Below, piece after piece: positions 1,928-48,900 of a DNA stretch of 64,000 nucleotides; the first letter of the stretch is position 1; every line of letters begins with the position of its first letter. The stretch comes from Calocera cornea HHB12733 (Eukaryota > Basidiomycota > Dacrymycetes > Dacrymycetales > Dacrymycetaceae): assembly GCA_001632435.1 (NCBI GenBank), contig KV424053.1, forward strand, positions 23,618 to 87,617. Reading direction: 5' to 3'. The notes beneath the pieces are model-generated. The model was not told where the DNA came from, did no database searches, and worked only from the letters and a program-made list of their open reading frames with translations. The translations under genes and the position numbers were made by a program.

Positions 1928-2350
1928 AGCTGTATTGCGTTCTTGACGGTATTAGGAAAGTAGAGAGAAGAGAGGAAAAGGTGTAGAGGAGGGTGTTCTA
2001 CAGTAGAGTGGCAATGGTGGTGCTAGAGTGGGTGGGAGCGCACGATGAAGACACGCAGTTAAAAAGTTGCGGCACGCGGTGCATCGCCACAACGACGTTG
2101 CCCTGTTCCCGGCCACATGTTTCGAGACGTTTCTAGCAGGATCTCTAACAAGGCATGCTCGCTCCACTTTCGGAGACCACGCTTTTTCCTGTCCCTGTGC
2201 AACGTAGTTGCATAGGTTTTCCCAGAGTTTTTGGATGCACATTCCTTCCTAATTGGGAACGGTCCGATTAGTAACAGATCTTGACAAATGTGTCTGGCTC
2301 CGTTCTTACATTATTTGCTACCGTGTTTTGGTTTCGTTTCCCTGCGTCTT
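1928..2350. promoter_or_regulatory. Upstream region of the Hsp110 gene
   Basis: Non-coding leader and promoter of the minus-strand chaperone gene. It holds one heat-shock-element-like array (listed separately). The GCGC word of the neighbouring Helitron becomes frequent only from about 2370 on, so the Helitron edge is probably between 2250 and 2450. No gene is seen here. Confidence 0.5.
2121..2138. promoter_or_regulatory. Heat-shock-element-like array
   Basis: TTCgaGACgtTTCtaGCA has four alternating triplets in exact 5-bp phase. Two are perfect (TTC) and two degenerate (GAC, GCA for GAA). It lies about 195 bp upstream of the Hsp110 start codon, which fits binding by Hsf1. The role is inferred from position and pattern only. 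Confidence 0.4.
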
Positions 2351-2559
2351 CAGTGGCTTGCCAGTTCATCAACGCGCGCCTTTTGTGCTTCGTGCTACAC
2401 TAAAGCCATTTTCGACTTCTGTGGCTTGTTGGGTCGTAGTATGTTTCTCCATGAACTTGCGCTATGTGGCTGGCACACTGGATACAGTGATCTGGCGCCA
2501 ACTACGAATCCTCTATATTGACTGCCTCTTCTGGTTAGTGCATCGACTTGTTCGACAGT

Positions 2560-5500
2560 ATGGACCTGATCTTTGATGTTTCTAGTCAAGCGATACAACG
2601 TCCTGGCGCCGTTTCTATACTGGTGACTGATTTGAATCGATGCTATCAATTCTGCACCGTTCAGTTCTTGGAAGAAGACACTCCTCCTCTGGTGGAAGGC
2701 GTTCATCTCACATTTTCCGCTTCTTTCGGCTCGGTACTTGGCGCCTATTCTTTTTTTACTCTAGTCGACATACGCCATATTGCTCAGCAGTTGCATATAC
2801 AACATGCGCCATCTTTGCGACGTCATAAGCTCTTGATGCGTCTGCATCATTATGTTGGATCCGCGCCCAGTTTTCCTTTCGCGCTTCGTTGGATTTTCCG
2901 CTTAAGGTCCGATCGGACTTATGACGGCGTGGGTCGATTACCATCGACGTCTGGTCGAAAGCGGCGTCGTGAAGAAGGCATTTCTGTTGGAGCCTCAAAG
3001 CGTACGCGTTTGGATGAAGCTATCAGCGAAATGGCGCCATTTCCGCCCACGTATGATGAAGACCTTGTGTGCAAAATCATCGCCGAATATACCGATAGTG
3101 TCTCTGTGGAGAACTTGCGCGAAGGCGTTTGTGCATGTTGTGCTGAAGCTGTTCGAGAAGTGGATATGCAAGCTATTCCTGTGGACAATATCGAGCTCGA
3201 CCTTTTGCAGAATCGACACATTCCGCACAATTTGCGCCCCTTAGGGTACGATTTCGATGGTTTCTCACACGCCATATTGGATCCTCGTGGCCTGACCAGC
3301 CCTGATGTCTATGGTGGCGAATTGCGACTTTGCGCCAGTTGTGCAAGTAGCTTGAATCGTGGCAAGATGCCAGCACTGGCGCTGGCTAATGGTTTCTACT
3401 ACGCTTTCGACCATGTACCGGAAAACGTGCGCAAAGCGTTTGATGACGCGACGTTCATTGATCGACGTCTCACGGCGCGCTGTACTGCGACAAAAGTATG
3501 CTTTCGGTATTTCGACAATCCCGACAGTCGTCTATTTCGTCAAGGACACGATGCGATGCAGCGCTATTTCCGTGGCAACGTTCTTATCTTACCGCAAGAC
3601 ACTGCCGTGCTCAACAACATCCTCCCTCCTCCATTGGACGATGTGAAGAACAGCTTTGTTACACTCTTTGCTGGGCAGGAAGCGCCGACTGCAGATATTT
3701 TGCGCAAATTGCAACCCGTTAAAGCGAATGCGACGATTGTTCGTACCATATTGGACTTCCTCTTATCCAACAATCACGCTTATACTTGTTCAACCATCGA
3801 TTTTCCACAAGGCGCCAGTTTTTCCGACGACAACTTCAATGCTATTTTTCCGTCCACAACCGGCGACGATTCTTTGACATTTCTACCTTGCATCGAGATT
3901 GGGCATGTCCAAGTCGACTCTGCGCAAGCTGGATCTGAAGCCGACGTCAGCTCGCGCAATGTTTTCGAGGACTCCGTAGTCGAAGATAATGATTTCTTGG
4001 TGGAACCATCCGGTTATTCTACCTCCAATCGTACTGCCACATCTTTCAAGGCAATGAAGGCCGACGCATTGGCGCATTGTCTGGATGATCATGGAAGTTT
4101 TCTGTTGTCTCGAAAAGGAAATCGCGCTATTCACGACCTTCGGAACGAATATACGTTAACATGGATGTTTCCCCACTTGGATCCATTTGCGCTGGGTGGT
4201 TTCGATGACCCTCGACGCCGACGCGCTGTATCCATGGGAAAACAACTGGCGCATCTTATGCGACTGGCCGATAGGCGATTCCAGAGAGATCCGTCCTTTG
4301 CCTATGTATTTCATAGTATCTTGCAACGACGGGATGCTCTGCGCGATGTTCGGTTTCGATTACCGGAGGGACGCCATCAAGCTATTGTGGAAAACTTGCG
4401 CACCGTCAATCTCGATGTTCTCGCCGATTTGTCGCGCCGGTTGGAGAAGGACAAGAAGGTGCGGCCCACAGGGGAAGAAGAAGAACTGGCGATGCGCGTC
4501 TTGCATCGAGTGCACATGTTAAGGAAAGATGTGCCCAGTTCGAATGGGTACAAACGGGCGCGACGCAACGAAATTCGATCTCTCGTATATCGCTTAGGAT
4601 CACCCGCATTCTTCATCACCATTACTCCTAGCGATGTTGATGGCCTCCTTTTTCAACTGGCAGTGAACGACTACAAAAATGCGCCAGATATATTGCAGGG
4701 TTCAACAAGAACATCGCGTTTTAAGCGTGCGATGCTGGTTGCAGACAATCCAGCAACTGCCGCATCTGTTTTTCACCGTATCATGCTCCGCTTTCGCGAT
4801 ATCATCTTACGGATCGAAAATGGCGCCGGTTTATTCGGAAAATGTACCGGGTGGTATGGCATGGTCGAAGCTCAAGGTCGTGGGACTCTGCATTGCCATA
4901 TGCTTATCTGGATCGAGGGTAATCCAGCTCCAAATCAATTGTGGGAATTGTTAACTGCCGACAAAGAACATTTCAAAACGCGCATGTTGGATTGGTTGGA
5001 ACGGCTAATTCATACGGAGTTGCCTGGTCAGACAGCTATTGTCGAAGAACCAAATGGTGCTTTACCGATGCCGAAGCGTTCGAAGGACGAAATCGATCCG
5101 AGATCTGTTGCAAGCCCCGATCTACGTCCATTTCAGCATAACTGGTGCCAGGTCTTTGAGCGTCGAGTAACCGACTTGGTGGTGTGCAATAACTGGCATG
5201 AACATCGCGCAACGTGTTGGATTCATCTGAGGCCTGGCGAGCCCAGAACAGATGATAAATGTCGTATGCGTATCGATGGGACAACACGCGCCATATCCGA
5301 AATTGACGAAGAAACCGGCTCTATTTTATTGCGCCGATTGCATCCACGAATCAATGAGTACAACGATGTTGTCATGTTCCTATTGGGCTGCAACATGGAC
5401 ATTCAGTATCTCGGATCGGGCGAAGCGTCGAAAGCGGCGCTTTATTATATTACCGATTATATCACCAAACCATCTCTTAAAGTGCATGCTGGTCTATCGG

Positions 5501-8478
5501 CGCTCATTTACGCACTGGAGAAAAACCGGAACAAATTTGCGCAAGTTCCAGACGCTCCAGAAGAAGTCGTCAGCAAAAGCCTCCTGACGAAGATAGTCAA
5601 CAGCATGTTGTCCAGGATGGAGATGTCGCTACAGCAAATCATGAGCTTCTACGTTGGTGGTGGTGATTATTACACCCAACATCACTTTGCGCGTCTTAAT
5701 TGGGGAAGCTTCTCTTCTGAGTTGCGCCGATTGGAAGATTGCGCCAATGGACAGGTCCAACAACCAGGCGCCAGTTCGGATGTCGATGATATGGACAATG
5801 CCTTAGAAGTGGACCTGCTTCAATCTGCACCTGTGGATGAAGACAACGAACAATTATCGGCGCACCTTCTTTTGTCCGTGGTTCAAGGCCACATAACAGC
5901 TTCTAATCAGTACCATGATTATGTGCTCCGACCTGAAGACGAACCGTTTGGGTCGCTTTGTCTTTATGATTTTGTCAGTCTTTGCGAAAAAATTGCTATT
6001 CCAAAGGGACAAAAAGGCGCCGACTCAATGGCGGTTTCGTATGCGGATTTGGATTATGATGATAATGAAGATGCGCCAAGTTTCGGCCTATCACGTGCAT
6101 CATTTCTTCCAAGTCATCCTCAGCGAAAATCACACTACCTCAGATTGCGCTCTGAACCGTACGTACCGGATATTCTTGGTCCAACAATTCCGAAGCGAAT
6201 GGATGACGCGTCACAAAGCACCGATTGGTATCGAGCAATGGTCATACTTTTCAAGCCTTGGCGCAATTTGCGCGATCTTATCATCACTGCCAACTCCTGG
6301 TCAGATGCATACAATGCTTATGAGTTTTCCGCCATGCATCGTGCAATTATGCGCAATATGGATGCAATGAATCAAGCTAAAGAGGCGCGAGATTCTGATC
6401 TACGTGGCAAAATACGGCAACACAAATCTGCGCGAGTTTGGTACAACGGCGATGTACAAGATGAGATGGACTTGATGGAAGATGGCATAGAACATGCCAA
6501 CGTCGGTTTTGATGATGAAATCAATAGTTCTCATGACGACGATGCATTTCTCACAACAATGGAATCGGCGCGAGAACTTCTTAATTCCGGCAAGGCTGAA
6601 ATTGCAATGCGCGCTTTCAACGATGCTTTCCATACCATGGATGCTACGCAGGTGCACCCCCCCACTTCACCGGAAGGGAACAATGTGCGCAACTTGTTAG
6701 ACGGTGACGCAGCAACACTCCTAGCGCTGGCTAAGGAGCAGAAGGAATGGAAAAAGGATCGGCGACCTAAATCAAAACTTGGCGCATATTCGATCTCCGC
6801 GATTGGCCCTTCTTCGACTATTACGCATGCCTCCGACGTATCCCATATGGGTGATGTTCGTGCTCGACCGGCTATTGCACTGGCGCGAGTTCAAGCTGCA
6901 TTGCAGCTGGTTATTACTCGCCAGAATCTATCGGAAAATAACGAACAACTGCGCGCATTGAGAGTTGTGGCTCATTACCTGTCTTCTGGTAACAGAGAAC
7001 AGCTTCTTCTCTACATTGGAGGTGGTGCTGGCACCGGGAAGAGCCATGTCATTAAGAGCATCGAGCTCTTATTCGACCTTCTCGGCATTGCCGACACATT
7101 GTTGCTCAGTGCGCCAACTGGCGCTGCTGCGTCTGTTATCGGTGGTTATACAATTCATGCATTGACTCTACTACCAAAACAACATGGTCGACAAAGCGAT
7201 ATCAATATTCTGGATGACATCTGGCAACATACCTATTGGCTGGTTATTGACGAGATTTCTATGATATCGGCGCATTTTTTGGGCGAAATTTCAGAGCAAA
7301 TTCGACTAGGAAAAGGCCTTGATGGATCGGTTCCATTCGGCGCGATTAACGTGATTTTCACCGGAGACTTCAATCAATTGCGCCCACTGGGTGCCCCGCC
7401 CTTGTATAGTTACGACTTGGTCCATCACCCACCCAGCCGTGTCTCGAACAATGCGCGTGGTTTGGAAGCTATAACTGGCGCATACTACTGGCAACAAGTC
7501 AACCACTGTGTCTTTCTTTCCCGGAATGTGCGCCAATTGGACGATCCCCGTTGGGCCAATCTTCTGCATCGTATGCGCGAGGGTGCGGCTTGGGATGGCA
7601 TTAAGACTCATACCACGGTGCAATTTGGAAATGGCGCCAATTACACCATGTCAGACTACGAAGTACTTCGTACTAGAATCCTGGCACGGCTTCGACAATC
7701 TGAGCCGGAATCGCTGTTTGGTTTTGAAAACGCGCCAGTCATTGTGTGCACTAAGGTTATTCGAGATGCCATGAACTTAACGCTGGCTACACAACATGCG
7801 CACGTTCTTGGTCGATCTCTCCAGTTATACTTCTCCCACGATCATTTGCGAACGACTCAAATTACCGGCGAACTGCAAGAGCATCTTTGGCGCTTACCCA
7901 GCAACAAGACTGAAGATGCGCCTAGTTTCATACCACTTTTCGAAGGCATGAGTGTCATGATTACGGAGAATCTCGCGCTCTCTCGAAATCTTGTCAATGG
8001 CGCAATAGGTACTGTTCAAGCTGTGCGGTATACACAAGATTCAGATGGTCGTCGATTTGCGCATGCTGTGAACATCACAGTACCTACATGCCACGAGGCA
8101 CAAATTGGGTTGCAGCCTCATACCGTATGCATTCAACCCACAAAAACGACTTACAAGATGCGCCTTGTAAATGAGCTGGGAGACGTCACCCATCACTCCA
8201 TTACTCGCCATCATTTACCCCTCTTACCGGCATATTCTTACACTGACTACAAGAGTCAAGGTCGATCCCTGGAACGTGCCATTGTTGATTTGCATGGGTG
8301 CCAATCTGCGCAAAGTGCGTACGTTATGCTATCTCGCGTACGGACATTACACGGCCTCGCCATTCTGCGCGATTTTACACCATTACATGTTAACGGATCT
8401 CCTCCCAATCAACTAACAAGTGAATTGGCGCGACTTCGCAATATTGCATCACATACCGAACATCAATTTACGGGATGA
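2560..8478 (+). CDS. Helitron Rep/helicase (HUH-Y2 Rep endonuclease fused to PIF1-like helicase)
   Basis: Single-exon protein of about 1972 residues that would nick, unwind and strand-transfer the Helitron. The first ATG is at 2560; the open frame extends 12 nt further without an ATG. The N-terminal third has paired cysteines (VCACCAEAV, LCASCASSL), a probable zinc finger. The Rep core follows: FFITITPSDVDG near residue 685, the HUH-type GTLHCHMLIWIEG near 775, and the two-tyrosine motif ALYYITDYITKPS near 960. The SF1/PIF1 helicase has Walker A GGAGTGKSH near 1488, Walker B LVIDEISM near 1562, GDFNQLRPLG, FLSRNVRQ, YKSQGRSLERA and YVMLSRVRTLHGL. All catalytic signatures are present. Unlike the accessory genes of the element it has no introns. 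Confidence 0.96.
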   Translation: MDLIFDVSSQAIQRPGAVSILVTDLNRCYQFCTVQFLEEDTPPLVEGVHLTFSASFGSVLGAYSFFTLVDIRHIAQQLHIQHAPSLRRHKLLMRLHHYVGSAPSFPFALRWIFRLRSDRTYDGVGRLPSTSGRKRRREEGISVGASKRTRLDEAISEMAPFPPTYDEDLVCKIIAEYTDSVSVENLREGVCACCAEAVREVDMQAIPVDNIELDLLQNRHIPHNLRPLGYDFDGFSHAILDPRGLTSPDVYGGELRLCASCASSLNRGKMPALALANGFYYAFDHVPENVRKAFDDATFIDRRLTARCTATKVCFRYFDNPDSRLFRQGHDAMQRYFRGNVLILPQDTAVLNNILPPPLDDVKNSFVTLFAGQEAPTADILRKLQPVKANATIVRTILDFLLSNNHAYTCSTIDFPQGASFSDDNFNAIFPSTTGDDSLTFLPCIEIGHVQVDSAQAGSEADVSSRNVFEDSVVEDNDFLVEPSGYSTSNRTATSFKAMKADALAHCLDDHGSFLLSRKGNRAIHDLRNEYTLTWMFPHLDPFALGGFDDPRRRRAVSMGKQLAHLMRLADRRFQRDPSFAYVFHSILQRRDALRDVRFRLPEGRHQAIVENLRTVNLDVLADLSRRLEKDKKVRPTGEEEELAMRVLHRVHMLRKDVPSSNGYKRARRNEIRSLVYRLGSPAFFITITPSDVDGLLFQLAVNDYKNAPDILQGSTRTSRFKRAMLVADNPATAASVFHRIMLRFRDIILRIENGAGLFGKCTGWYGMVEAQGRGTLHCHMLIWIEGNPAPNQLWELLTADKEHFKTRMLDWLERLIHTELPGQTAIVEEPNGALPMPKRSKDEIDPRSVASPDLRPFQHNWCQVFERRVTDLVVCNNWHEHRATCWIHLRPGEPRTDDKCRMRIDGTTRAISEIDEETGSILLRRLHPRINEYNDVVMFLLGCNMDIQYLGSGEASKAALYYITDYITKPSLKVHAGLSALIYALEKNRNKFAQVPDAPEEVVSKSLLTKIVNSMLSRMEMSLQQIMSFYVGGGDYYTQHHFARLNWGSFSSELRRLEDCANGQVQQPGASSDVDDMDNALEVDLLQSAPVDEDNEQLSAHLLLSVVQGHITASNQYHDYVLRPEDEPFGSLCLYDFVSLCEKIAIPKGQKGADSMAVSYADLDYDDNEDAPSFGLSRASFLPSHPQRKSHYLRLRSEPYVPDILGPTIPKRMDDASQSTDWYRAMVILFKPWRNLRDLIITANSWSDAYNAYEFSAMHRAIMRNMDAMNQAKEARDSDLRGKIRQHKSARVWYNGDVQDEMDLMEDGIEHANVGFDDEINSSHDDDAFLTTMESARELLNSGKAEIAMRAFNDAFHTMDATQVHPPTSPEGNNVRNLLDGDAATLLALAKEQKEWKKDRRPKSKLGAYSISAIGPSSTITHASDVSHMGDVRARPAIALARVQAALQLVITRQNLSENNEQLRALRVVAHYLSSGNREQLLLYIGGGAGTGKSHVIKSIELLFDLLGIADTLLLSAPTGAAASVIGGYTIHALTLLPKQHGRQSDINILDDIWQHTYWLVIDEISMISAHFLGEISEQIRLGKGLDGSVPFGAINVIFTGDFNQLRPLGAPPLYSYDLVHHPPSRVSNNARGLEAITGAYYWQQVNHCVFLSRNVRQLDDPRWANLLHRMREGAAWDGIKTHTTVQFGNGANYTMSDYEVLRTRILARLRQSEPESLFGFENAPVIVCTKVIRDAMNLTLATQHAHVLGRSLQLYFSHDHLRTTQITGELQEHLWRLPSNKTEDAPSFIPLFEGMSVMITENLALSRNLVNGAIGTVQAVRYTQDSDGRRFAHAVNITVPTCHEAQIGLQPHTVCIQPTKTTYKMRLVNELGDVTHHSITRHHLPLLPAYSYTDYKSQGRSLERAIVDLHGCQSAQSAYVMLSRVRTLHGLAILRDFTPLHVNGSPPNQLTSELARLRNIASHTEHQFTG

Positions 8479-9380
8479 TATATCAAAGAGGAACAAAATC
8501 GGGATCACCAATGACCAGCCGTCTGTTCTCGACCAAATCGGCGCGAAGTAGCAGAAGATATCTGCGCGAGTTCAGCCAAGAATCCTATCCATTTAGAAGG
8601 ACTCACAGCCGTCCGTGTATCATTTTACTGAAGATAATCGCCGACACGATGGAACCTAGCGCCCACTCACGGGGTATAGTGGCCTCGTGTTCCTCGGACT
8701 CCCCATTAAGGACCCAAACACACTGCTCGCCATCACTGAGAAGTACTCTGCGCAAAGTGAGCACTCTGTATCATAGTGGTATCCGTTGACTTACAATGAA
8801 TCACCATCACCGTGCCCGTGCCTCACTTCGCCATCTACTGTGTGCATGACATCCAGAACTTGGACAACATATCTTCCGAAGTGCGAATGATTTGAAAGCA
8901 GTTCTCCAATGGCGCCGGTTGGCCAACTTGCGCCTCGTGCAACATCCACCGCTGCCTGCCTTCCTGGTCCGGGATGCATGGCTATGTCTTCGCTGTGCGT
9001 ACCACCTTATTATCAACCGATTTATAAGTGTTCTACTTGGCGCCATATTTCCTTCATACAACGTCATACCGTTCTATGACTTGGAACATGCCTTATGGCT
9101 TGTAACATGGCTTGTAACATGGCTTGCAACGTGGCTTGCATGGCTTACAAAATGGCTTGCAACATGGCTAGCAACATGGCTTACTACATGGCTTGCTACA
9201 CGACCTGCCACAATTGCACATCTTCTCGAAGGCTTGCTTATCTCCACTATTCACTAAGCACTTCGCGCCAGGTGGCTGTCAGGTCTTACTCCAAACACAG
9301 GTTCGGTTCTAAGCAATACGCGCCATGTCGATCTTATAAATTCCGATACTTACAAGCCTTGGACATATCACTTTGCCCTC
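8479..9380. other. Helitron internal spacer
   Basis: About 900 bp without a supported gene. It keeps the GCGC word (for example near 8540, 8910, 8930, 9040, 9265, 9320) and holds a 12-bp minisatellite at 9095-9199. It presumably contains the RepHel 3' UTR and the promoter of the gene starting at 9381. Confidence 0.6.
9095..9199 (+). repeat. Minisatellite, 12-bp unit ATGGCTTGTAAC, nine copies
   Basis: Eight 12-bp units and one 9-bp unit, with variants such as ATGGCTTGCAAC and ATGGCTTACAAA. Because the unit is a multiple of three it reads as repeated Met-Ala-Cys-Asn on the plus strand. That frame continues to about 9424 with no other sign of coding, so I treat it as a non-coding tandem repeat. 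Confidence 0.85.
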
Positions 9381-10432
9381 ATGTCACGTCGACGTTCCTA
9401 TCAGTCTTCCGTAGGCGCCGATGACGTGGATATTCGGCGCAAGCGGTGCGTGTCTCTCACTTAATCCTGTCTTTATACTTATTATTGTACAGAAATAAAA
9501 TCGACGTTTCCGATGAGGTTTTGCCAGATCTGGACCTAACCGATGAACCTGCGCCGTTTAGTGAGCTCCATCCGGACTTCGCGCCGAAGAAGAAGGCAAC
9601 AGATGACGACACAGACGATACTATCCGTAGTTCGGATAGTGAAGAACATCGTGCTGAATCGGCGCCACTTGACCTTACTGCGTTTCAGCCTACCATGCGT
9701 CAGCGCATTGACGGAATGCGCAAATACGCGGATCGCTCTCGTGGTGTATTCTATATTACCAAATTCCCGGACGATCTCACATGGGGCCACCATCAAGCAT
9801 ACAACATGACCAACTACCTTGCGCGTGCTGACAACTATCCCATCGCCGTTTGGGTGCTTGGCCACATTGTCGCGTTGAAATTTGCGCCAGATTCGAAGAA
9901 AATATGGCCCAGCCAGGTCTACGCCAGCGTTCGTCCACTTACTAAGGACGACATGCGCGCAGCAAGTCAGATCCAGAGACTTTATTCCCACCCGCGTAAA
10001 GGTGCGCCATTTCATCTCTTTTTAGTCTGGATCCTCATTATCCACAGAGTCGGTAGAGAGCGCATTCTCTACTATTATCGCCAACAAATTTCAGAATATA
10101 TATGGCTCAGAGGAACCAGTAAGCACCTAGCGCAATTTACCTTTTTATACATTAACACTATCTCACAGGCTCGCGAATTTGTTGACGTGTATGATGCACA
10201 ATTGGGTATGAAACCGAGGAAGGATTTAGCGCACTTTCCAGCTGCGTCCTTGAAGAAGACGGACTTCATTCTCATGGAGATGAAGGTGAAAAAGCGATTC
10301 GACAAAGAAACGGCGCATCTTGCCAAAGGTAAACGACCGTGGTCTATTAACTTCACTTTGAGCGCAGTATTCCTCCTAGAGGAAGGGACGGGTGCCACTG
10401 GAGACGATGACAACGTCTCTTACGGATTTTGA
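9381..10432 (+). CDS. Helitron accessory protein A, acidic N-terminus, unknown fold
   Basis: Not recognised. I model five exons with introns at 9446-9492, 9996-10047, 10119-10168 and 10329-10367. The spliced length is exactly 864 nt (287 residues), and removing the second intron replaces an implausible hydrophobic stretch with PQSVESAFSTIIANKFQNIY. The protein starts MSRRRSYQSSVGADDVDIRR. A strongly acidic stretch (DDDTDDTIRSSDSEE) follows, then a globular part with WGHHQAYNMTNYLARADNYP and SQVYASVRPLTKDDMRAASQ, and a basic C-terminal segment (MKVKKRFDKE). Three of its four introns carry GCGC. The basic head and acidic block suggest a nuclear, possibly DNA- or histone-binding protein; this is inference. 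Confidence 0.7.
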
Positions 10433-10645
10433 TGTAGTACATCGACTTGGATTCTAATTTGCGCTAAGTCTGCTTCGAAATGATTCTATCTACGGTATAA
10501 CTACATATTCTGACAAAATGTAATCGCTGCTAAATAATTTGCGCCACATTTGCTTCCTCTAATTTGCCCCCTTGCGCGTTTTGTGCGAAGGTGGCTGGTT
10601 AAAGCTGCGCGTTCACCCCTGCCACGTACCACCACTCACCACAAA

Positions 10646-10849
10646 ATGTCGCGAGGCCATATCGACCCTCTCAACACCTCAACCAGCGCCAATCTCACCT
10701 TCCACCTTGCGCAGATTGAGGATCTTCGAGACGAGGTAGATGTATTGACCAGGATGCTGGTGGACGCCCAGCTAGCCATCCAGCAACGAGACCTGGCCAT
10801 CATCTCCTTGGCTGCCGAGCTCGCTCGCCTTAACCGGCGCACATTGTAG
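10646..10849 (+). CDS. Helitron accessory protein B, 67-residue coiled coil
   Basis: Small single-exon gene starting MSRGHIDPLNTSTSANLTFH and then almost entirely one amphipathic helix with Leu/Ile/Val heptads (IEDLRDEVDVLTRMLVDAQL, AIQQRDLAIISLAAELARL), ending in NRRTL. The C-terminal pattern resembles the end of accessory protein C (12690), which finishes in a similar helix and NRRK. This suggests the two form a hetero-coiled coil, or that one derives from the other. It lies in the same direction between accessory genes A and C. The function is unknown. The alternative is a chance open frame, but the heptad regularity and an ATG after ACAAA argue for a gene. Confidence 0.55.
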   Translation: MSRGHIDPLNTSTSANLTFHLAQIEDLRDEVDVLTRMLVDAQLAIQQRDLAIISLAAELARLNRRTL

Positions 10850-11153
10850 ACGAGCATAACAGCGAATTGGCGCCTGTCATACGCCAACATCACGACCACG
10901 ATCACTTGCGGCGACACCAATCATATGGCGCAAGTATGCCCTCTGATACCATGATACACTTCTTTGTCGAAGCTGCATACAGTGGCCTGCGCTGGCCATC
11001 ACGAATACACGCCAATTGAAGCCGTTGATCAAGAACCCCTGCGCTCTTTTGCTCCCGCTCGAATTGCACCCGCTCGTGCCCTCACTTGGCGCGGAGTCCC
11101 GTGTCGCCCATGGATCCACCCGTACACTTTCCTTTCCCATCTGGCGCCACTTA
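10850..11153. other. Spacer between Helitron accessory genes B and C
   Basis: Non-coding; GCGC occurs near 10868, 10925, 10988, 11040, 11090 and 11141, about once per 50 bp. No other structure is seen. Confidence 0.55.
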
Positions 11154-12690
11154 ATGCCACCGAAACCCGACAAATCGTACAGAACAATCGACAGTGGTCT
11201 CGGTGTGCCGCGTTCTAGTCTGGACGTGTATCAGCGCCAGCTGATCTACGACGAAGCGGCGCAAGCTGCAGCGTTGTTCGATCCGATCTTCTCTGATCCT
11301 GCTCTGCAGCAAGCCTTGCTGGACGACGCTGCGCAAGCTCCTTCGGACGGCTCCCGCCAACCGGCGCCGGGTCATCAACCTTCCCCTTCCCGCCACCCTG
11401 CGCAAGTTCAACGTTCATCCCAGCAACAAGCCACCACCTCGCGCACTATGCTTCCTCATACCCCACCTCGGACAAACGCGCCGACGCAGCCTCTCTCGCC
11501 TTGGGGTCGTCCTGCCCAAGACGTTGTATGGACCGGTCCTCTCTTCGTCCCGCCTGCTTTGCGCGAGAGACCTGGCACCTTGGAGGAGATTCGGTATCAA
11601 AGGTGCGCCAATTCGCTCTACGACTTCACACTCTCGCGTTAACTTCTCTTAGTCCTCCTCCCCCATTCGTGATTCCACAAACCGCTACAGTGGCGCAACC
11701 AAGGTGCGCTTGTTACATTTTTCATTTGGCGCCATCTAACGTGCGCCTCTCAGTACCACGGTCCGTTATCCTCGCTACCAACCATCTGCCCAACCCGTGC
11801 TCGGTCCGTCCAGCCACTCCGGGCCATCTGGCGCAAGTTCTCGTCGTGATAACGCCCCTCCACCTCGTCCATCTGGCGCCGGTTACAGCTTCACCCGCCC
11901 TCCCGAGATCATCGATCACGACGATACTGGTGGCGCATTTGGCAGCTTCCGTCCACTCGACGCCCAGCCATCTCATCCGCCTCCTGGTCAGACGCTCCCT
12001 TCGTCTCTTTCCCCACTCGGCGCCCAGTCTTATCGCCCGCCTCCTGGCCAAACTCTGCATCACAATCAACCTCAATTCGGCGCCCAGTCTCACCCACCCC
12101 CGCCCCCTCACCCACCTCTGCCTCCCCCTGCCCCAATCAGCGCCCATTCATCTCGTCAGCCCTCCGATCGTACACTCCGCCTTCAAGGGGCGCAACGTAG
12201 TCCAACCCAGTCCTACGCTCGTGCTGTTGTCCAATCTCCTACCCACCAAGCTGCGCCAAATACGTATATACCGCCACCTCGTTTACAGCCCTCCCACACG
12301 GCGCAGATTCGTCCGACTTCTTCAGCTTATACGCCGCCGACCCGTCCACAGCCCACGCAAACGGCGCCGACTTCGCGAAACGCTCCTCCACCGCCTACCA
12401 ACACGAACTCTGCGCCAAGTTTCCCAACACGTATTCTTCCACCAACTGGAGCGAATCCCCCTGCTGCGCAGAGCGTGTTCACCTCGCGCCTTCTGGACGA
12501 CGCAGAAGTATCAGATGACGAGATCGAAGAGTTCTCGGACGAGGAAACCGACCACGCGCCAGTTGTACCGCGTCAACAGGCTGAGAACATCATCCTCGCC
12601 CAGCAGATGATGTTGCGACAAGAGCAACAGAACGCGCGCGATTTGCGTGCTCAGGTGGACGAGCTGAAGAGGGCCAATCGGCGCAAATGA
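11154..12690 (+). CDS. Helitron accessory protein C, Pro/Ser-rich with C-terminal coiled coil
   Basis: Not recognised. Three exons with two 50-nt introns at 11603-11652 and 11704-11753; both begin GTGCGC, so the dispersed word is built into the splice donor. About 478 residues. The start MPPKPDKSYRTIDSGLGVPR is followed by a predicted helical segment (YQRQLIYDEAAQAAALFDPI). A long disordered Pro/Ser/Gln-rich middle has quasi-repeats (PPPGQTLPSSLSPLGAQSYR and relatives, 11960-12180). An acidic patch (DDAEVSDDEIEEFSDEE) leads to a terminal coiled coil (LRAQVDELKRANRRK). The architecture suits a scaffold or DNA-tethering factor. Function is not assigned. Confidence 0.7.
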
Positions 12691-12801
12691 GTATACGTTT
12701 TCACATCATCCTCACTGTCCTTACTGCTCAGTTCATCTTGCGCAAATTGTATTTCAGTCATTTCCTGCTCTTAATAAAACAATTTGCGCCTAATGCTACC
12801 C

Positions 12802-15280
12802 TTACACTTGACCACCCTCCCAGTCGATCTTCACGGCGATCCAATTCTCCGCCCCTTTGTACTGGCGCCAAGTCAGAACATTGACAATACCTTGCACCAA
12901 AAGCTTACCGGTCCCTTTGTCACTGTCGATATCTGCAGAGTCACCATGTATCTATACGAACTCAACAGGCGCAGGCTCTCTCTGAATTGATCGCGATTCT
13001 TAGGCTGTCCCACTTGTTAACTAGCGCATATTTCGTCCCCGAAAAACGTACCTGCAATGCAATAGCCAACATGTCACTCGCGCCCAGTGAAAACAGATTC
13101 TTCGTGACACCGTTGAACGCCGTGATCCAGTGCTTCGTACCCGTTGTGTCGGTTAGAATCACATTAAGACGGTACCTGGCGCAAGTTATTAAGCCAAATC
13201 CGCGCCCCTTTCAACGATACGTACTTGATGGACGGTGACGCATACACCTTATCGCAATTCGAGCATATGTAGAGAAGCCCGTCCGCCGTACGCTCGGCAA
13301 CTCGCGCCATTTTGTTGCAAGCTGGGTCGGGACATGCAAAGTACACATAAGGCTTGTCGTCCGGAAAGCAAATCGTCCCACGGATCTTCACGATATCTGG
13401 CGTCTCCTTCAAACCCAACTCGCGCGATCTGATCTGAGGGATGGTAAGGAGGTTGATGTGGTGTGGCATCGTAAGAAGGGGCGCCCCGTCAGCGCTGAAT
13501 GTGCCAGTAATGAGACGCGCCGTGTGCGTCAATGACTCCGGAGAGTCATACCTATTCTGCAATGAGCACTCCCGAATGACCAACCGGCGCAATGTCTTAC
13601 CACGCCTTCAACGCAACATGCGCCGCGTTATCAGGCTCGAACGTGAGCACCGTTCCACCAGGCTGCGTCTTCAGGCTCGTGCTTCCACGGAATTGATCAA
13701 TAAGCGCGCCTTTGATGGTGACGACTTGACCTTCCCGCATCTGCAATTGATCCATATACGGCTGTCCAAATGCGCAAAGTCGGACGTAAACGAGCGAATC
13801 ATCGTACAAGTACACATCGACGCGATCCACGTTCTCCAAAGGCGTATTGTATTTCTGCCTCAAATCAGCCATCTGCGCCGCTTGTTTCAACAACTGGCGC
13901 ACCGTGCCTCCCCTAGCAACTTTACTCGTCTTGCCTAGCATCGGCTCCCCCACTCTGACAATGATCGCAACCACATCTAACCAGGTTAATTGGCGCCATT
14001 TTCAGCTGTGCGAATAGTACTAACCCACTAGCCGATTAGCCGGAAGAGGTTCAAGTGTGTTGAGGCGCCTATACTCGAAGAACGCCGCAGGGATGATATC
14101 GTTATCAGGTACAGCGACGCAAGTCGTCCGTTCCATGATCTGGACTTGATAGAGGTGGTTCGCCCTCGTGTACCTCAAATCGGCGCGATTGAGACCAATA
14201 CGAGAAAATTGATAAAGCTGCGCCAGTTATTAGCACCATTCACCGATATACCTGCTTCCCACCTTTCCGACTTCAAGTCGCGCCATTTTCGAGGCAAACC
14301 CATCCCACGCAACACCATCGATTGCAGCCTGTCAAAGAAATCAGCGCGAAGTTCTGCTACTTGAAAGAAAGAGATTTACAAATTCGTCGTGCATTGTCCA
14401 CATCACACGCTCGCGCATGTTCTTCCCATGTTGCACCATTTGAATCGGCGTCATCTTGCTAATGCGTGCGATTATATACCACCTGGCGCAAGTTTAATAA
14501 CACAATATGCGCCAAGTTACTTGTACTCACTCTCCAAGGATCGGCCCCAGTTCTCGAATTCCCATCCGCACAGGAGGCCCCTCGCGCAACGTTAACTTCC
14601 CCGCACCATACAGCCGTCCTGCCATTTGCGTCTCGTACTTCAGTCCTTTAATCTTGCCCGTTGCATGACTCGGAGAAGGCACCGTCCGCTGCTGAACCAT
14701 ATTCTGCGCGTAGTCGACACCTTGCGGATACGGAATCGGCGCTTGACCAGGGAAACCTTGCGCCAGGTGATCGTTCGATCCCAACGCGCCTTGTCCTTCC
14801 TCAAACGGAAGTACGATCCTTTGGGGCTTGCCAATGACTCCCTGTTCCTGACGCAGAAACGTGACTTTGTCCACAATGACCACCCTGCGCAGATTGTTAG
14901 CTGCCCGCAGAACTTGCGCCTATTGACACGTACTTCACCGTTCTCCCGACCACAAACATCTGCTCAAACCCCTCGATCTCCACGACTGAATACGGCGGCA
15001 AGGCGTGCTCCAGCATACGACGAGTAAGGTCGCGCCCGGCAATAACTTGCGCGCAGTGTACACCATCGCTGATCAACAGCCTATCAAACCATCAGCCAAA
15101 TCGGCGCGTATTGAGGAGCATATACAGTACTCACGTTAGGCGGGGTGGCACGAAAGACGTGCCATCCACCTTCTTGAACTCGCTTGTCTCGAGTACTTGG
15201 ACGGCGCCCATCCAGTTATCTGGCCAGCCTGTCGTCATCGTAGAGATAGCAGCCGGCGCCAGTGGCTTGTGAAGATCCAT
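12802..15280 (-). CDS. RFA1: Replication protein A large-subunit (RPA1/RPA70) homologue carried by the Helitron
   Basis: Single-stranded-DNA-binding protein of about 660 residues in eleven exons. The start at 15280 gives MDLHKPLAPAAISTMTTGWP. The N-terminal OB fold is seen in LLISDGVHCAQVIAGRDLTR and VEIEGFEQMFVVGRTVK. DBD-A starts at EWYIIARISKM and ends in GKLYQFSRIGLNRADLRYTR. DBD-B covers 13597-13974. DBD-C has the zinc ribbon CPDPACNK...YICSNCDK, followed by NVILTDTTGTKHWITAFNG and KNRDQFRESLRLLSSYRYMV. The last exon ends at a TAA at 12802. All ten introns (about 44-54 nt) are hand-modelled and keep RPA homology across every junction. All ten contain GCGC. Plant Helitrons are known to carry RPA genes. 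The alternative, a host RFA1 trapped by the element, is less likely because the gene shares the word. Confidence 0.85.
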
Positions 15281-15430
15281 TTGAAGTCAATCTGCGCAAA
15301 TTAGGTTGAGACAATCTAGCCGACGTAGTGGAAAGGCAGCGGACGCGACGACAGAGCGCGTGGGTAGTACAGTCACACGCACGGGATCTAAATCGGCGCT
15401 TTTTGCCTCCGTGCACCCCTTTCCCCTCAT

Positions 15431-15468
15431 CGCACCGCTTACCCCAACCCCGTTGCACAGGGGGTGCG
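15431..15468. other. GC-rich hairpin near the right end of the Helitron
   Basis: CGCACC (15431-15436) can pair with GGTGCG (15463-15468). Alternatively ACCCC (15447-15451) pairs with GGGGT (15461-15465) around a 9-nt loop. Helitrons carry a short hairpin just before a 3' CTRR, but no CTRR follows within about 15 nt here, so the assignment is weak. Confidence 0.3.
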
Positions 15469-15670
15469 CGGAGCGCTTGGCTATACAACGCACCGTTGCT
15501 CCCAAGGCTCGACGTAAATTATGAAAAGGATAGTATTGCCGCCTCTCAGTCCTACAATGTGAAAAGAAAACTGTCAAATCGCTGTAGTTGACAACCCCGT
15601 CCTATGGAAGGTACAACCCTGATCGCTGAATCGATGGGTAAAGGGAAAAGAAAGAAAGGAGAGTGCATTT

Positions 15671-17188: not shown

Positions 17189-20100
17189 TCAAAGCGCTGC
17201 GCCCAATCCCAGCTTGGTACGCTTGATGCGCGCCGTAAGGGGATCGATAATGCCCCCTGCAGTGAGTCCGATCCTGTCTCCTTCGGACCATCTAGATCGC
17301 CAATCATCAGGAATTGGCTGCAAGTTTCAACAGCAGCACGTACCCCATCATCTGTAACATCTTGTAGCCCACATTCGTATCCGCAATCTTTGCGGCCTTG
17401 GCACCGACAATCTCGCCCTCACCATGGTGCGCATTGCTCTTCCCGCCACCCTTGTCCTTACGCTGCTTGCCCTGCATAGCCTTGTTGAACTCGGCCATAT
17501 TACTGCCCGGTCCCGAGTTCTTGCTTGCCCGCAGAATGCGCTCCACTCTCTTCTCATTGATGGCGATGCCCGAGCGGGTCGTCTTGGTCAAGATCGGGAA
17601 CCGGTCCGTACCTTTTCCTTTGCTCTGGCTCTTGAGTTTGAAGCAGTCCGCCAGCAGGTGCACGCGCCGCCGGCTTTCCTTGTCCATTGCAGGCAGGGTC
17701 ATGGTCGTCTTGCCCAGGTCGCGAAGGAAGACGCGGATCATACGCTCGAGCGAGAACATGTCCGTGACATCCTCGAATTCGGCCTCGAACTCCGAGTCGG
17801 TCTCGGAGGTGTCCGATTCATCGGGGTTTGACTTGCCCTTCTTGCCCTTGCCCTTGTCTTTCGAGGCCGTCTTGAAGGGGTTGCCGAGCTGCCGCTTCCG
17901 CTCCAAGGCACGAGCACGCTTGTAGTCGGCCTTCTTAGCACGATCCTTGTCCCATAGTATCTGAAGCTCGGGTGGCAGATCGTTACGCTTCCGGTTCTTG
18001 CTCTTGACTGCAACCCGCCATTAGTACCATCGCGAGTAGCAGTCGGATCAACTCACGAATGGAGCTGGCGAACAGCGCATCGTCCATATCCACAATCCCA
18101 CCCAAGTTTCCGTCCCGGATGGCGCTGAACAGCTTCTTCCTGCTCTTCCGATCCCCCTTCAGCAGCTCGTCATTCCCATCCAGCACAGCCTGGATCTCAT
18201 CCACCAGGTTCCCATCCTTATCATCCCATGCAAAGCCGCCCTCGAACATCTCCTCGTCATCGGAGGACTCCTCCTCGTCGTAGTTCAGCCGCCACTTCTT
18301 CTTCTTGCTCGCGGTGGCTTTGGCGGCGGCAGCTTTGGCGCGGACAAGGCGCGCCTGGAACCCGCCTGATGGGCCGGCGACGGGCTGTCCGTCCTCCCCG
18401 AGTGCTTCCTCCTCGTCATCGTCCTCATCCAACTCGTCAATCTCCTCATCATCGTCACTCTCCCCCAGCAGCTCTTTCTCCGCCTCCCTCAGCACCTCAT
18501 CCAGATCCTCGCTCTCGCTCTCGCTCCCGCTAACCTCCTCATCCGAAGAGCTCTTATCCCCATTCTCCCTCTTGATCCTCTCCTCCACGTCCAAATCCGC
18601 AATGCTCAACTGCTGTGCCCCCCACCCCAGGGCAAATCTCGCCATGGCGTCCTCGTCAAGCATGTCTATATCCATCGTCGCAAGCGCGTCCGACAGACTC
18701 CCTGCGGCCATCTTATCAGCAGCGGCGGTGAACTCCAGCTCGTCTTCCTCGTCGTCAGAGTCGCTGTCCTCCTCCTCTTCACCGCCAGGAACGCGCACAG
18801 GCGGACCATCGGTGCCCCACTCAAGGTCAGAGTCACCCACGCGTGGCCCCGCCTCTTCCCCACCGGGCATGGACAGTTTGGTCCGCTGACGCAGGGCGGC
18901 GCGCCGCAGGCGCTTGATCTCTTTCCGCTTGAGGGACGTGGATTTGCCCTTTGAGGAGGAGACATTGCGGGGCGAGGAGAAGGTCGGGGAGAAGGCGAAG
19001 GTTTCGAATGTAGGGACGGCGGCGGCGGCTGCATCGGGGAAGGCGGAGGGGACGGCTTCCTCCACCTGGGCTTGTACCGGTGTCGCCTCGGTTGTATCGA
19101 CGGCAGGAATTGGCGCAGGAGCGGGCACAGAAACCACTTCAGCCGTGTCGACGACAGGAGCAGGCGCAGCAAGCACCTCCGCCGTTTCAACAAGAGGAGC
19201 AGGAGCCACCTCAGCTGGCTCAACAGCGGGAGCCACAACCTCCGCCTGCAGGGCCTTAACAATCTCCTCCAGGCCCAGCCCCACCGCCGCTCCCTCCCTA
19301 ACCTCACCCACCATCTCACAAGGTGTAGAAGCAGCCGAAGTGGTGCCCTCCGCTGCCTTGCCCACAAAGCCCTTGAGGAGGCCCGAGAGCACCGAGGCGG
19401 TCGGGAAGCGGTCCGGGGTGGCGGCGCGGGAGGGGTCGAGGGAGTGGATGAGGGAGTGGGGTTGGGGGATAGTAGGGATGGCAGGGATGACAGGGAGAGT
19501 GGGGGGGAGGGAGGTGGTTGGCAGAGCGGTGGGTGCAGGCGCAGATTCGGGCGCGGGCAGGGGTGCTGGGACGGGAAGGGGTGCAGCGGGTAAAGCGGGG
19601 GACGGACCCATGCTGGCCACCTGGCTCCTCTGTGCCGGCGCAACGTACACCACCTCATCTTCCTCTTCCGAGTCAATCTCCATCGCTCCCACCGACTTTG
19701 GCAGCTCCACCGTAATAGTCCTCGTCGTCGTCGTAGCCTGGAGGAAGATGCCCGGCATCACACTCTGGGCGACGAGTTCCTCCAGTGTGTCCCTAGGTGT
19801 TTGGATACCAGAAGGAGCACCAGAGGGCTGGGCGGAATCATGCTCCACCGCGCGCTCTATCTCGGCCGCACGCTCGAAGGCCTTTGCAAGCCAGTCGGCG
19901 GTGGCTTCCTGGTCCTCGTCTGAACCAAGAATCTCAAATTCTGAAAGTGGGATAAGGGAAAAGGGACAACGCACCGGCATCCTGCACCTCCGCCTTGAGC
20001 AGCTCGTCCCGCTCCTCAAACAGCGTCCCGGCCTTGACGAACACGATGGGCTTGAGCAGCGGCCTCTGGCTCTGCCTCGGATCGCGCTCCCTCTCCCTCC

Positions 20101-20599
20101 CTCGCCCACCACCGCCAGAGTCGAGCACGGACCCCCCGCCCCCGCCGATCGGCCGCGCCCACTCGTACCCCCGGTCGTCTTCGGGCATCGCCCGGTAGCC
20201 TAGGCCGCCGCCTCGCTTCCCACGCCCAGAAGGAGGTGTGTAGCCCCGACCCCGACCGCTGGGCGGGGTGAACGCTCCACGGAAAGGGGAGAAGCCGCGC
20301 TGACCGCCTCCGCCTCTGCCTCTGTAGGGCGAAGGATAGGAGATTCCAAGTTCAGCCATGACCACTATCACCCATACCCAAGCTCAGCTGCGCATCAGGG
20401 AAGGTTGTATGGGGGAAAGCGCACCCTGAGCCTCCTGCTCGACCTCGAACCTCGCGAACCCTCCTCCGCCTCCTCGACCACGCCCACGCCCCCGAGGGGT
20501 GTTGGTGCCAGACCCGCGCGGGGTGTTGCCTCTTGAGCCGCGTCCGCCCCCGCCGGGGGTGCCTCGGCCGCCCCGAGGTGTGTTTTGGCCGCGGTACAT
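17189..20599 (-). CDS. SQS1: R3H and G-patch domain protein (Sqs1-like)
   Basis: Probable activator of a DEAH-box RNA helicase (yeast Sqs1/Pfa1 works with Prp43). The N-terminus from 20599 is a Gly/Arg-rich region (MYRGQNTPRGGRGTPGGGGR), then more RGG-like repeats at 19934-20340. A long Pro/Ala- and acidic-rich middle occupies 18030-19930. The R3H domain lies near 17580-17760 (MIRVFLRDLGKTTMTLPAMD, HLLADCFKLKSQSKGKGTDR), and a C-terminal G-patch (NVGYKMLQMMG, joined over a short intron to WSEGDRIGLTAGGIIDP) ends RIKRTKLGLGAAL with TGA at 17189-17191. R3H followed by a C-terminal G-patch is the Sqs1 order. Intron positions in the middle part are approximate. Confidence 0.85.
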
Positions 20600-45975: not shown

Positions 45976-48900
45976 ATGGCCTCATCCAACGGTATCTCTG
46001 CCGCCGACCTGGCGCGCATGCATGGTGCTGCCCCCGCGACCGTTGGCGGACAAACGGTGGAAGACATCATCGCTGATCCGTTCCCATCTCTGGGCGGGGG
46101 CGAATCGGCTCCCATCGCCCAGCCCTCCAGCTCTCGTCCCGCTCAGAGGCCCGCCGGCGCGCTCGACACTGCGTCCGAGGATGCCTTCCCTAGCCTGGCA
46201 GCCCCCGCCCCTCGCCAGCCTGAGAAGGCTCCCGCAAAGAGCAAGTGGGCAGCCGGTTCGGCGGCAGTCAAGGGCAAGGGCAAGGCTCCGGCCGGTTCAG
46301 CCAGGGCGAATGGCACTCCGTCCCCTGGTCCCGCCGTTGCCAAGCAGGCCTTCCACACCGATACCCTGGTCATCGAATCGCCCGTTCTCCAGCCCAAGCA
46401 GAGTGTCGGAGATGTGTGCAGGATCGTCATGAAGAAGCACGGTGTCACCATCGACCCCAGTTCTCAGATGAAGGCGGGCCAAAAGGAGACTACCTTCTTG
46501 ATCAAGGCGTCGAATGCTAAGTTGGTTGAGGATGCTCGCAAGAGTTTGGTTTCGATGCTGTCCCCTGTCGTGCGTTCCTCGAATCAAAATTGGTTCCGCG
46601 GTATATGCTGATCTCGCTCGACCAGATCACATTGACAATCGAGGCACCGGTGTCCACCATTGGTCGCATAGTTGGTCCTAAAGGTGCGTATTGGCACGTT
46701 CAGCCTCGCTAGCGGTGTTGCTGATGATCGGTTAGGTGCTTCGCTCAAGGCGCTCCGTGACGAGTACAACGTCCGCATCGACATTCCAAGGCGCGAGACG
46801 CTCACGAACGGCGATTCCGCTACTCCTGTCAACGGCGATGCCGACGAGGTCGAGGAGCCCACTATGACTGTCACCATCAACGGCCCTGCCCCGGGTGCTC
46901 GTCAGGCCTACAACTCGATCCACGCCATCGTCGCGGAGAAGACCAGCAGGACGTCCACCAAGGTTTCCGTCCCTCACCATTTCTGGCCGTTCCTGTCTGC
47001 CAAGAAGGATGAGCTGGAAGGTGGTCAAGATGTCAAGGTCAACGTGCCTAAGGGCTATCATCCTGCCGAAGATGATGACGATTCAACTGCTGCGGAGAAG
47101 ACGCACGCTGCCCACAGTGCCCCGATTGTTGTCGCTGGCGAGCGGAGCGCTGTTGCCCAGGTGGCCGAGCGCATCACGGCCCTGGTCACCGAACTGGAGA
47201 ATGACACCAAGGAACTTGTGTATAAGTTCCCGAAGCGTCAGCACCGTTTCCTCGTCGGCGAGGCTGCTCGGAAGATCATGGAGGAAACCGGCTGCAGCGT
47301 CGAGCTGCCTGCCTTCGATGATCCCAGTGAAGAAGTCGTCATCCGTGGACCGGAAGATCAGCTTCCCGTGGCTCTTGGGGTCGTGATGAAGCAGGCAAAC
47401 ACTGCGACTGTCCTGCAGGTCGATCTCTCCAAGACCTACCCTCCGCCGTCGAACCATGCCAACCAGCTGCTCATGTTCCTCACCCGCTCCGGCCGGCTTC
47501 GCAAGCTTGGCGAGTCTCATCCCGGTGTCAAGTTCTACGCCCCGCGGCCAGCCATCGTCGAGTCTACTGGTGGTCACCTGGTGATCGACATTGTCGGCGA
47601 CAACAAGGCGGCAGTGCAGAAGGGCCGTGACGATCTGGACAGTATCGTCAAGTCGCTCACTCCCGAGTGCTTCGACAGCATGGAGATCGAGCCTCTGACT
47701 CACCGCTTCCTGATCGGCAAGAAGGGCCAGAAATTGAAGGCCTTCCAGGATGCTCATGGTGTCGATGTTTTGTTCCCTCATGAGGGTGCGGAATCTTCGA
47801 CTGTTCTACTCGTCCACACTCGTCCACTGGATGGCGACAAGAAGACCAATGAGGCCGAAATTCGCAAGCGTCTTGCTGAGGTCAAGGAGGAGATGGGCAT
47901 GCTGGAGAAGGAGGCCGCCGACATGAAGACAGAGACCCTGAAGGTCGAGAAGAAGTGGCACCGCTTTGTGGTTGGTCAGGGCGGCACCACGCTGAACGGG
48001 TATGTTGACTCACTCATACTCATGCGGTTACCTTAGTAATCCATATCTAGCATTATCGGCGAAGACAAGTCAATTATTGTCAAGCTCGGCTCCAGCGGCA
48101 AACCCGGCGTGCCGGTCAATAACGACGTGGATGAGGACACTGTTGTCATCCGCGGCCCCAAGGACCAGGTCGACCGTGCTGCTAAGGAGATTCTCCAGAT
48201 CGTTGAGGATGCCAAGAACGACGACATCGTGAATGGATACGTATGTATCGGTCCACCGTTCTGCAGTATATATCTGACTGTTCCATGTAGACCGAGGTGT
48301 TCAGCGTCAACAGGGACTACGTTGCCCGTATTGTCGGCACCGGAGGGTCTGGCATCAAGAAGATCCGTGACGAGCTTGGCGTACGGGTCGACATCGATGA
48401 CCAGGAACAGGCTGGGGACGATGGCAAGGGCAAGAAGAAGAAGGCACCGACGACGGCAAATATCAAGATCGTTGGAAGGAAGGAGAACGTACTCAAGGCC
48501 AAGGAGCGCATTTCGGAGCAAGTTGACCGGATGGCGGACGAGACCACGGAGATCCTCAAGATATCCGCACAGTACCACCCTTCCTTAATTGGACAGCATG
48601 GGAAATACGCTATTCGGCTAGAGGAGAAGTATGGTGTCAAGATTACCTTCCCCAAGGAGAGGGACGAGAGTGACAACGAGAGCCGCCGACGGGAGCCGCC
48701 TATTGGAAAGGATGAGGTTCTGCTTCGTGGGGGCAAGAAGGGTGTGGCTGGGGCGAAGGCTGAGCTTCTTGAGGTGAGTGCACTTATGGCTTGGACTCCG
48801 TAACCCACTAATTGTGTTTCTTTTCAGACCGTCGAGTTCGAGAAGGAGACCAACAATGTGGTCAAATTCACGGTTTCTCAAGGCGCTATCTCTCGTATTG

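Follow-up and report, generated by a model that had tools for sequence, protein, structure and literature searches.

Related systems and the locus studied

In the VANDAL transposons of Arabidopsis, which are Mutator-like elements, two reports describe short motifs that differ between related elements and are read by VANC proteins, with divergence of both motif and protein (PMC5735166, PMC10398659); the VANC21 motif, YAGTATTAY, is described there in noncoding regions, its targets often being tandem repeats (PMC5735166). Fungal Helitron2 elements (FoHeli) have asymmetric terminal inverted repeats, with the 3′ repeat ~20–40 bp from the end, terminal hairpins and a RepHel protein, and the available part of their description mentions no dispersed words, the term "dispersed" occurring 0 times in the text (PMC5148889). 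According to a further report, fungal DNA transposons including Helitrons bear TET/JBP, likely as a counter to methylation (PMC12730594), that is, an enzyme gene rather than a ladder of sites. Here we consider a 64,000-nucleotide stretch of the Calocera cornea HHB12733 genome (assembly GCA_001632435.1, contig KV424053.1, positions 23,618 to 87,617; hereafter the window), which contains a Helitron2-like element with a short palindromic word dispersed along it.

The window element, on the contig labelled C140, matches FoHeli in terminal layout and RepHel (PMC5148889), and differs from it in its 13-kb length and four accessory genes. A lineage-specific short motif is enriched in it, as in VANDAL elements, and the comparison with these drawn in the original prediction proved productive, because related Calocera elements carry different words. 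Unlike VANC motifs, the Calocera words are palindromic, evenly spaced and equally dense in coding sequence, and the noncoding or tandem layout is not seen; host and transposon class also differ, and no VANC-like protein was recognised. Since this layout is lacking and no reader was found, the element is not classed with the VANC systems, while its mechanism, by analogy, most likely resembles VANC anti-silencing. A limited search of open papers found no account of dispersed, selected words in Helitrons or Harbingers.

The word is palindromic, specific to its lineage, evenly spaced and maintained by selection. On balance we favour the reading that it forms a ladder of some 180–200 double-stranded DNA (dsDNA) sites, bound by a sequence-specific protein whose role is most likely to counter host silencing. 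The features on which this rests are as follows.

2374..15476, no strand: GCGC ladder of 201 sites with a mean gap of 65 bp; 14-bp palindrome AANNNGCGCNNNTT
2192..15484, plus strand: whole element, with termini common to C21, C118 and C36
2560..8478, plus strand: RepHel, with DUF6570, Helitron_like_N, HUH, Y2 and PIF1 helicase with Walker A

A palindromic word dispersed over the window element

The original prediction placed GCGC about once per 60 bp over 2370–15480, and 201 overlapping occurrences (mean gap 65 bp) were indeed counted there; its hand counts of about 16 in 6001–7000 and about 42 in 13000–15480 became 17 and 43 by program. Counted without overlap, GCGC reaches 14.7/kb in the element versus 7.4/kb in host DNA at 15671–59350, a control region with 360 GCGC in 43.7 kb. 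It is the top 4-mer outlier of the whole element under both a dinucleotide model (~90 expected) and a maximal-order Markov model (z 10). By compartment, it ranks first in the RepHel open reading frame (ORF), in 8479–10700 and in 12701–15480, and third in 10701–12700. Host DNA behaved as foreseen, GCGC being absent from the top words listed for 15671–59350 and occurring 6 times in 46001–47000 versus 6.9 expected. The excess therefore neither disappears on correction for dinucleotide content nor recurs at equal density in the host, the two outcomes by which the claim was to be judged.

The context K-GCGC-M proposed earlier is palindromic, but it is merely the inner part of the 14-bp palindrome AANNNGCGCNNNTT. 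On alignment, GCGC is followed by a mild M, A, R and then by T, in 50% of sites at +6 and in 74% at +7 (the strongest flank), with the mirror image of this pattern before it. A(−7) or T(+7) accompanies 182 of the 201 GCGC in the element, and both accompany 115; the corresponding numbers for the 360 host GCGC are 144 and 14. High densities of the word occur in the leader, RepHel, the spacers, the introns of accessory gene A and the accessory genes, which bears out the view that the signal lies in DNA across coding, intron and spacer sequence.

Such words might in principle arise through bias in mutation or composition, through codon usage or from a repeat in the protein: CpG is present in all three words found in these Helitrons (see below), and the base composition and CpG content of the element differ from those of the host. 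When synonymous codons of the window RepHel ORF were shuffled so as to preserve both protein and codon usage, 81 GCGC were seen versus 41.6 in the shuffled sequences, and the half motif 66 times versus 12. These shuffles, together with a blind scan of 6-mers (below), rule out codon usage and protein repeats, as had been argued from the letters alone, and together with the Markov-model outlier tests they led us to reject composition or dinucleotide bias.

Related Helitrons carry different words

The RepHel sequence gave 31 tblastn matches in the 32.1 Mb genome, and eight related Helitrons were found to carry lineage words. C21 shares the word of the window element, three others carry ACTNTGCGCANAGT and four CACGTG. 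Group I thus comprises C140 and C21 (word AANNNGCGCNNNTT), group II C118, C36 and C79 (word ACTNTGCGCANAGT, with G(+6) at 81–86% and T(+7) at 62–79%), and group III C116, C45, C67 and C23 (word CACGTG, with weak flanks). These groups are clades with 100/100 support, I and II being sisters, followed by C48, which has no visible word, and then by III.

When four patterns were tested on 16 RepHel ORFs, the resulting matrix was near-diagonal, with strong enrichment tracking lineage. Expressed as seen/shuffled, the half motif stands at 66/12.0 and 40/6.1 in group I, TGCGCA at 29/4.5, 30/6.0 and 27/4.8 in group II, and CACGTG at 22/5.0, 23/6.8, 19/4.3 and 25/4.6 in group III. The main off-diagonal cells are those of group I, with TGCGCA at 10/4.1 and 8/2.5 and, in C140, the longer half word of group II at 4/0.3; the TGCGCA signal corresponds to the same core being contained in the group I word. 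The seven RepHel ORFs outside the three groups show no comparable excess, the maximum being TGCGCA at 4/1.1 in C8. In the blind scan, in which all 6-mers of each ORF were compared with the shuffles' own maximum at the 99% level, the top match was the word or part of it, and exceeded that level, in all nine ORFs of groups I–III, while none of six other Helitron ORFs had any 6-mer above it. No comparable word emerged from general scans of additional Helitron loci, most of them partial.

Two candidate words were rejected: TCCGGA for C48 (5 seen versus 1.7 expected), and GATATC for C23, which lies mostly inside an inserted block with a reverse transcriptase match. This block of ~6.8 kb without CACGTG (L010/L036, ~106.3–113.0 kb) separates RepHel from gene A in this group III Helitron; its reverse transcriptase match spans 108901–109383, and it is presumed to be an element of long terminal repeat (LTR) type. 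The accessory regions of C45 and C67 (L008/L033 and L009/L037) have extra genes between A and C; judged by eye, one of these is nucleotidyltransferase-like, and there is also a second RPA70N-like stretch.

Words are maintained in place within lineages

For each element, the word was compared with the sequence that a relative has at the aligned codons. In group II, the word is found intact in place in 22/29, 22/29, 24/27, 24/30 and 20/27 cases (74–89%) at 64–70% nucleotide identity, versus 8–11% for other 6-mers, and third codon positions are conserved at 0.84–0.94 in the word core versus 0.39–0.44 outside it. In distant group III pairs, 11/18, 11/22, 8/21 and 6/20 words are intact (30–61%, versus 6–10% of other 6-mers), the last of these being weak at base level (z 1.5), and 17/19 are intact in the close pair C67–C23, versus 40%. 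Because group II words are kept so much more often than other 6-mers, selection must be maintaining them; within a lineage the words are under selection, and their positions differ between lineages.

A mutational process, which the original prediction had allowed for, is unsupported because the words keep their aligned places while synonymous sites next to them have changed almost to saturation; the words are, moreover, lineage-specific. Bias in any form is refuted for group II by this conservation, and for the window element by the shuffles and by the even spacing described below; for group III the numbers against it are weaker. With words present in introns and spacers as well, an origin by mutation, composition, codon usage or protein repeat is left with very little probability overall.

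Between groups, sharing of site positions is little above chance (14/77, 2/29, 1/21 and 0/19, versus 13%, 6%, 4% and 3%). This would suit a label of self, by which RepHel or a partner prefers DNA bearing its own word, a preference in cis resembling that for uptake sequences in transformation. Such uptake sequences are spread through Neisseriaceae genomes. Lineage dialects inside and outside genes, and positions shared between groups no more than by chance, speak for such a label; a preference of this kind has no need of even spacing, and among the proteins scanned DNA-processing domains are present only in RepHel, none of which, to our knowledge, reads dispersed palindromes. We consider this explanation quite improbable. 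The Neisseriaceae words are likewise short and form related dialects between lineages (PMC3630211), but they belong to prokaryotic chromosomes and transformation, not to transposons.

The sites are evenly spaced

Spacing was assessed from the coefficient of variation (CV) of gaps, compared with 2000 random placements, for the window element, groups II and III and some Harbinger elements. The CV is 0.57 in the window element and 0.52–0.59 in group II, versus 0.95–0.99 at random, and 0 of 2000 placements were as low; host GCGC gave 0.98, 1.17 and 1.08. Pair distances of the sites showed no clear helical or other short period. Such even coverage suggests a limited range of action for each site.

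Even tiling over the element would also be expected if the ladder served replication, coating or compaction of an element intermediate, for example by RepHel or another element protein tiling circular dsDNA, and a circular intermediate is considered likely for fungal Helitron2 (PMC5148889). Yet words seem to be present in Harbingers too, whose transposition class is different (see below), and related Helitrons with RepHel and a homologue of protein A lack them, so that a role in the intermediate appears rather improbable.

Probable words of similar form in PIF/Harbinger elements

A genome search for AANNNGCGCNNNTT gave 591 places (421 for the reversed pattern); among the 50 of these 591 that were listed, a cluster on C1 corresponds to a PIF/Harbinger element, another copy of which lies on C6. 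Five further Harbinger loci were picked from 28 matches by PF13359 and not by word. PF13359 (DDE_Tnp_4 transposase) is found at all seven loci (L038–L044), and PF12776 at L038, L039, L040, L041 and L044 (there partly outside the sequence taken), with no match at L042 and L043; the seven loci are assigned to PIF/Harbinger on the combination of a DDE_Tnp_4 transposase with a Myb/SANT-like partner. Palindromes with a TGCGCA core are present in four of the five loci picked without the word, namely ACCTTGCGCAAGGT at L040 and words with AGG..CCT flanks at L041, L043 and L044. The Harbinger words AACnnGCGCnnGTT, ACCTTGCGCAAGGT and AGGnTGCGCAnCCT resemble those of the Helitrons in architecture. The Harbinger-like locus L042 (on C16) has a different word, TGCTGGTC, with neither CpG nor GCGC (CTGGTC 23 versus 3.0).

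The word of each element exceeded all 400 synonymous shuffles in every one of the 12 Harbinger ORF sets, at ratios from 4-fold (L042) to ~20-fold (L044, L041). This result is weak by itself, because words chosen post hoc in LTR elements do likewise, beating all 300 shuffles in four of four ORFs, mostly at lower ratios (TCGAGA 14/5.0 and 16/4.5, CTATCA 10/2.5). The blind 6-mer test, which allows for the choice of word, covered six Harbinger loci, four LTR loci and eight host ORFs. Four of the six Harbingers pass (L040, L041, L042, L044), L043 is borderline (5.3 versus 5.4) and L038 fails (4.2 versus 4.7); one of the four LTR loci passes narrowly (L046, 5.4 versus 5.2), and one of the eight host ORFs passes (17983–20112, AGGGAG, 5.9 versus 5.3). 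Spacing as even as that observed arose in 3 (L038), 17 (L040) and 674 (L044) of 2000 random placements. The strongest support for the Harbinger words is the repeated GCGC-core palindrome in loci picked without it; these elements probably carry words of their own, a case that is good but unsettled, with weaker statistics than in Helitrons.

In the reverse-transcriptase element at L045 and L046 (C23 and C64), TCGAGA/ATCTCG is above shuffles (16 versus 4.5 in L046), borderline in the blind scan, and is perhaps a word of its own. The host ORF at 17983–20112, with 12 AGGGAG versus 2.8 shuffled, may be a repeat or a frame that does not code.

Comparison of Helitron and Harbinger proteins gave no convincing shared protein, the best phmmer match (E 4e-4) being between short unannotated ORFs. 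A profile of the Myb-like C-terminal part of the Harbinger proteins had no match, and the 13 matches of Myb_DNA-bind_3 all adjoin PF13359 matches, with 0 in Helitrons. With no convincing shared protein, the common GCGC-core architecture points to convergence, to a reader family of the host or to a factor that one element supplies to another in trans. Host-encoded regulatory or pioneer factors, exploited by the elements to stay open, are accordingly an alternative: a paralogous family with a ANNNNGCGCNNNNT footprint, and a factor of bHLH type for CACGTG, a classic bHLH site, would account for similar words in unrelated transposons without any protein common to them. However, in the 32.1 Mb genome the complete palindrome of group II is found just 15 times, with 10 of these places falling in the three elements of that group and one in the window Helitron, and thus gives no sign of a host regulon; several lineage-specific flanks are also hard to explain by one factor. 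We regard reliance on host factors as a minority possibility, though one to be taken seriously.

Candidate readers among the accessory proteins

The original prediction named the accessory proteins A–C as candidate readers, which was not supported. Homologues of protein A also accompany Helitrons without a detected word, at ~2 kb or less from RepHel in C48 and C62 and on the same contig, ~8–17 kb away, in C8, C28 and C86, and protein A as a dedicated reader is weakened for this reason. They occur in Calocera viscosa as well. Protein A had no Pfam match and no PDB sequence match below E 0.1, and its predicted fold is too poor for interpretation (pLDDT, the predicted local distance difference test, 42). 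Protein C is RPA1-like and of a family of single-strand binders. The ORFs of gene B match, among related elements, only C21 by tblastn.

A proposed binding-site ladder that may counter silencing

The proposal that we favour, a ladder of protein-binding sites directed against host silencing, would work as follows. A sequence-specific protein with two-fold symmetry (dimeric) would bind sites throughout the 13.3 kb, genic and intergenic alike, and, acting over a short range, would exclude host CpG methylation or heterochromatin from the element; joint change of reader and word would yield new lineages, as in VANDAL transposons. We infer that a protein binds the word; that it then acts at short range to keep the element accessible is less certain. 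Such a range would explain why a site is needed every few hundred bases. That the block inserted in C23 is free of CACGTG favours this proposal.

Some element copies have TGA stops and low CpG, as expected from decay of methylated CpG. In C79, decay was less frequent at motif CpG than at the remaining CpG, both against C36 (5/30 versus 143/315, p 0.0019) and against C118 (5/28 versus 136/340, p 0.025), as it should be if the sites remain covered by a protein provided in trans.

Several results weigh against the proposal. In C21, decay of motif CpG (37/81) does not differ significantly from that of other CpG (189/347, p 0.17). CpG near sites was not significantly better kept than distant CpG in any of six comparisons, and in that of C36 to C118 the kept CpG lay slightly farther from sites (p 0.031); in the decayed copies, distance to the nearest site made no difference. 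Protection of neighbouring CpG according to distance from a site was therefore not observed. Taken together, the decay evidence is mixed: in one family the site as such may be covered. Scans of RepHel, protein A, ORF pieces of B and five pieces of C, which did not extend to B0 or to the accessory genes of groups II and III, revealed neither a dsDNA-binding domain nor a TET/JBP domain. Helitrons without words (six of six in the blind scan, and C48 by known words and general scans) are still present in the genome. Evenness is weak in group III, with a CV of 0.66–0.76 (46, 16, 225 and 34 of 2000 placements as low), and conservation in group I is modest, with 30/81 and 30/44 intact versus 27% for any 4-mer (CpG-centred 4-mers, 11% and 24%, the partner C21 being decayed).

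More tentatively, different transposon superfamilies might share a code of self-address, an evenly tiled palindrome A-N4-GCGC-N4-T with variable inner flanks, whose reader family, encoded by the host or passed between transposons, would keep the element open and whose changes of dialect would give rise to new lineages. A protein-coding transposon here bears a second code at the level of DNA, with selection strong enough to hold synonymous sites while divergence erases the rest. If the favoured proposal is correct, sequence-specific self-marking, known from one plant transposon group, extends to fungi, to Helitrons and probably to Harbingers, and into genes. Escape of transposons from CpG silencing, and the joint change of reader specificity and ~200 sites, would become testable, and the even spacing would provide a natural estimate of the reach of one bound protein along chromatin.

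Termini and gene content of the window element

The remaining features of the element are the following.

2192..2216, plus strand: 5′ terminus TCCCTGTGCAACGTAGTTGCATAGG, with internal inverted repeat GCAACGTAGTTGC
9381..10432, plus strand: accessory gene A, exons 9381–9445, 9493–10001, 10048–10118 and 10169–10432, 302 aa
10646..10849, plus strand: accessory gene B0, ~67 aa, coiled coil by eye
11154..12690, plus strand: accessory gene B, rich in Pro, with a coiled coil by eye at the C terminus; exon limits approximate
12960..15280, minus strand: accessory gene C, RPA1-like, multi-exon, borders approximate
15451..15484, plus strand: 3′ terminus CGTTGCACAGGGGGTGCGCGGAGCGCTTGGCTAT, an inverted copy of the 5′ CCTGTGCAACG followed by hairpin GCGCGGAGCGC

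Comparison of termini moved the limits of the element from 2370–15480, as first proposed, to 2192–15484. The sequence CCTGTGCAACG lies at 2194 and its inverted copy CGTTGCACAGG at 15451–15461, 23 bp before 15484. The terminal inverted repeats are thus asymmetric, with the 3′ copy internal to the end, and hairpins are formed by GCAACGTAGTTGC and GCGCGGAGCGC, all of which are hallmarks of Helitron2. A degenerate pattern of the 5′ terminus is found on the 5′ side of seven of eight related loci (C21, C118, C36, C45, C67, C116 and C23), and not in C79.

The RepHel ORF is listed as 2548–8478 from a TTG, the first in-frame ATG being at 2560. Pfam matches to Helitron_like_N (6e-30) and PIF1 (7e-17) accompany LHCHMLIW at residue 781, YYITDYITK at 966 and GGAGTGKS at 1492, which we take to be the HUH, Y2 and Walker A motifs, respectively; the protein thus has the HUH, Y2 and PIF1-type helicase composition of Helitrons. 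Protein A is identical (100% over 302 aa) to CALCODRAFT_486799 of Calocera cornea HHB12733, and a small ORF in group II resembles B0 by eye. Protein C matches REPA_OB_2 above the Pfam cut-off (4e-7) and Rep_fac-A_C below it.

Tandem repeats were noted at three places in the window: an imperfect 12-bp repeat, ATGGCTTGCAAC, at 9075–9200 in the spacer between RepHel and gene A; 24- and 27-bp repeats at 45171–45425, within the host region used as control in the original prediction; and, at 61720–61828 in the CpG-poor right end of the window, a 37-bp repeat of ~3 copies.

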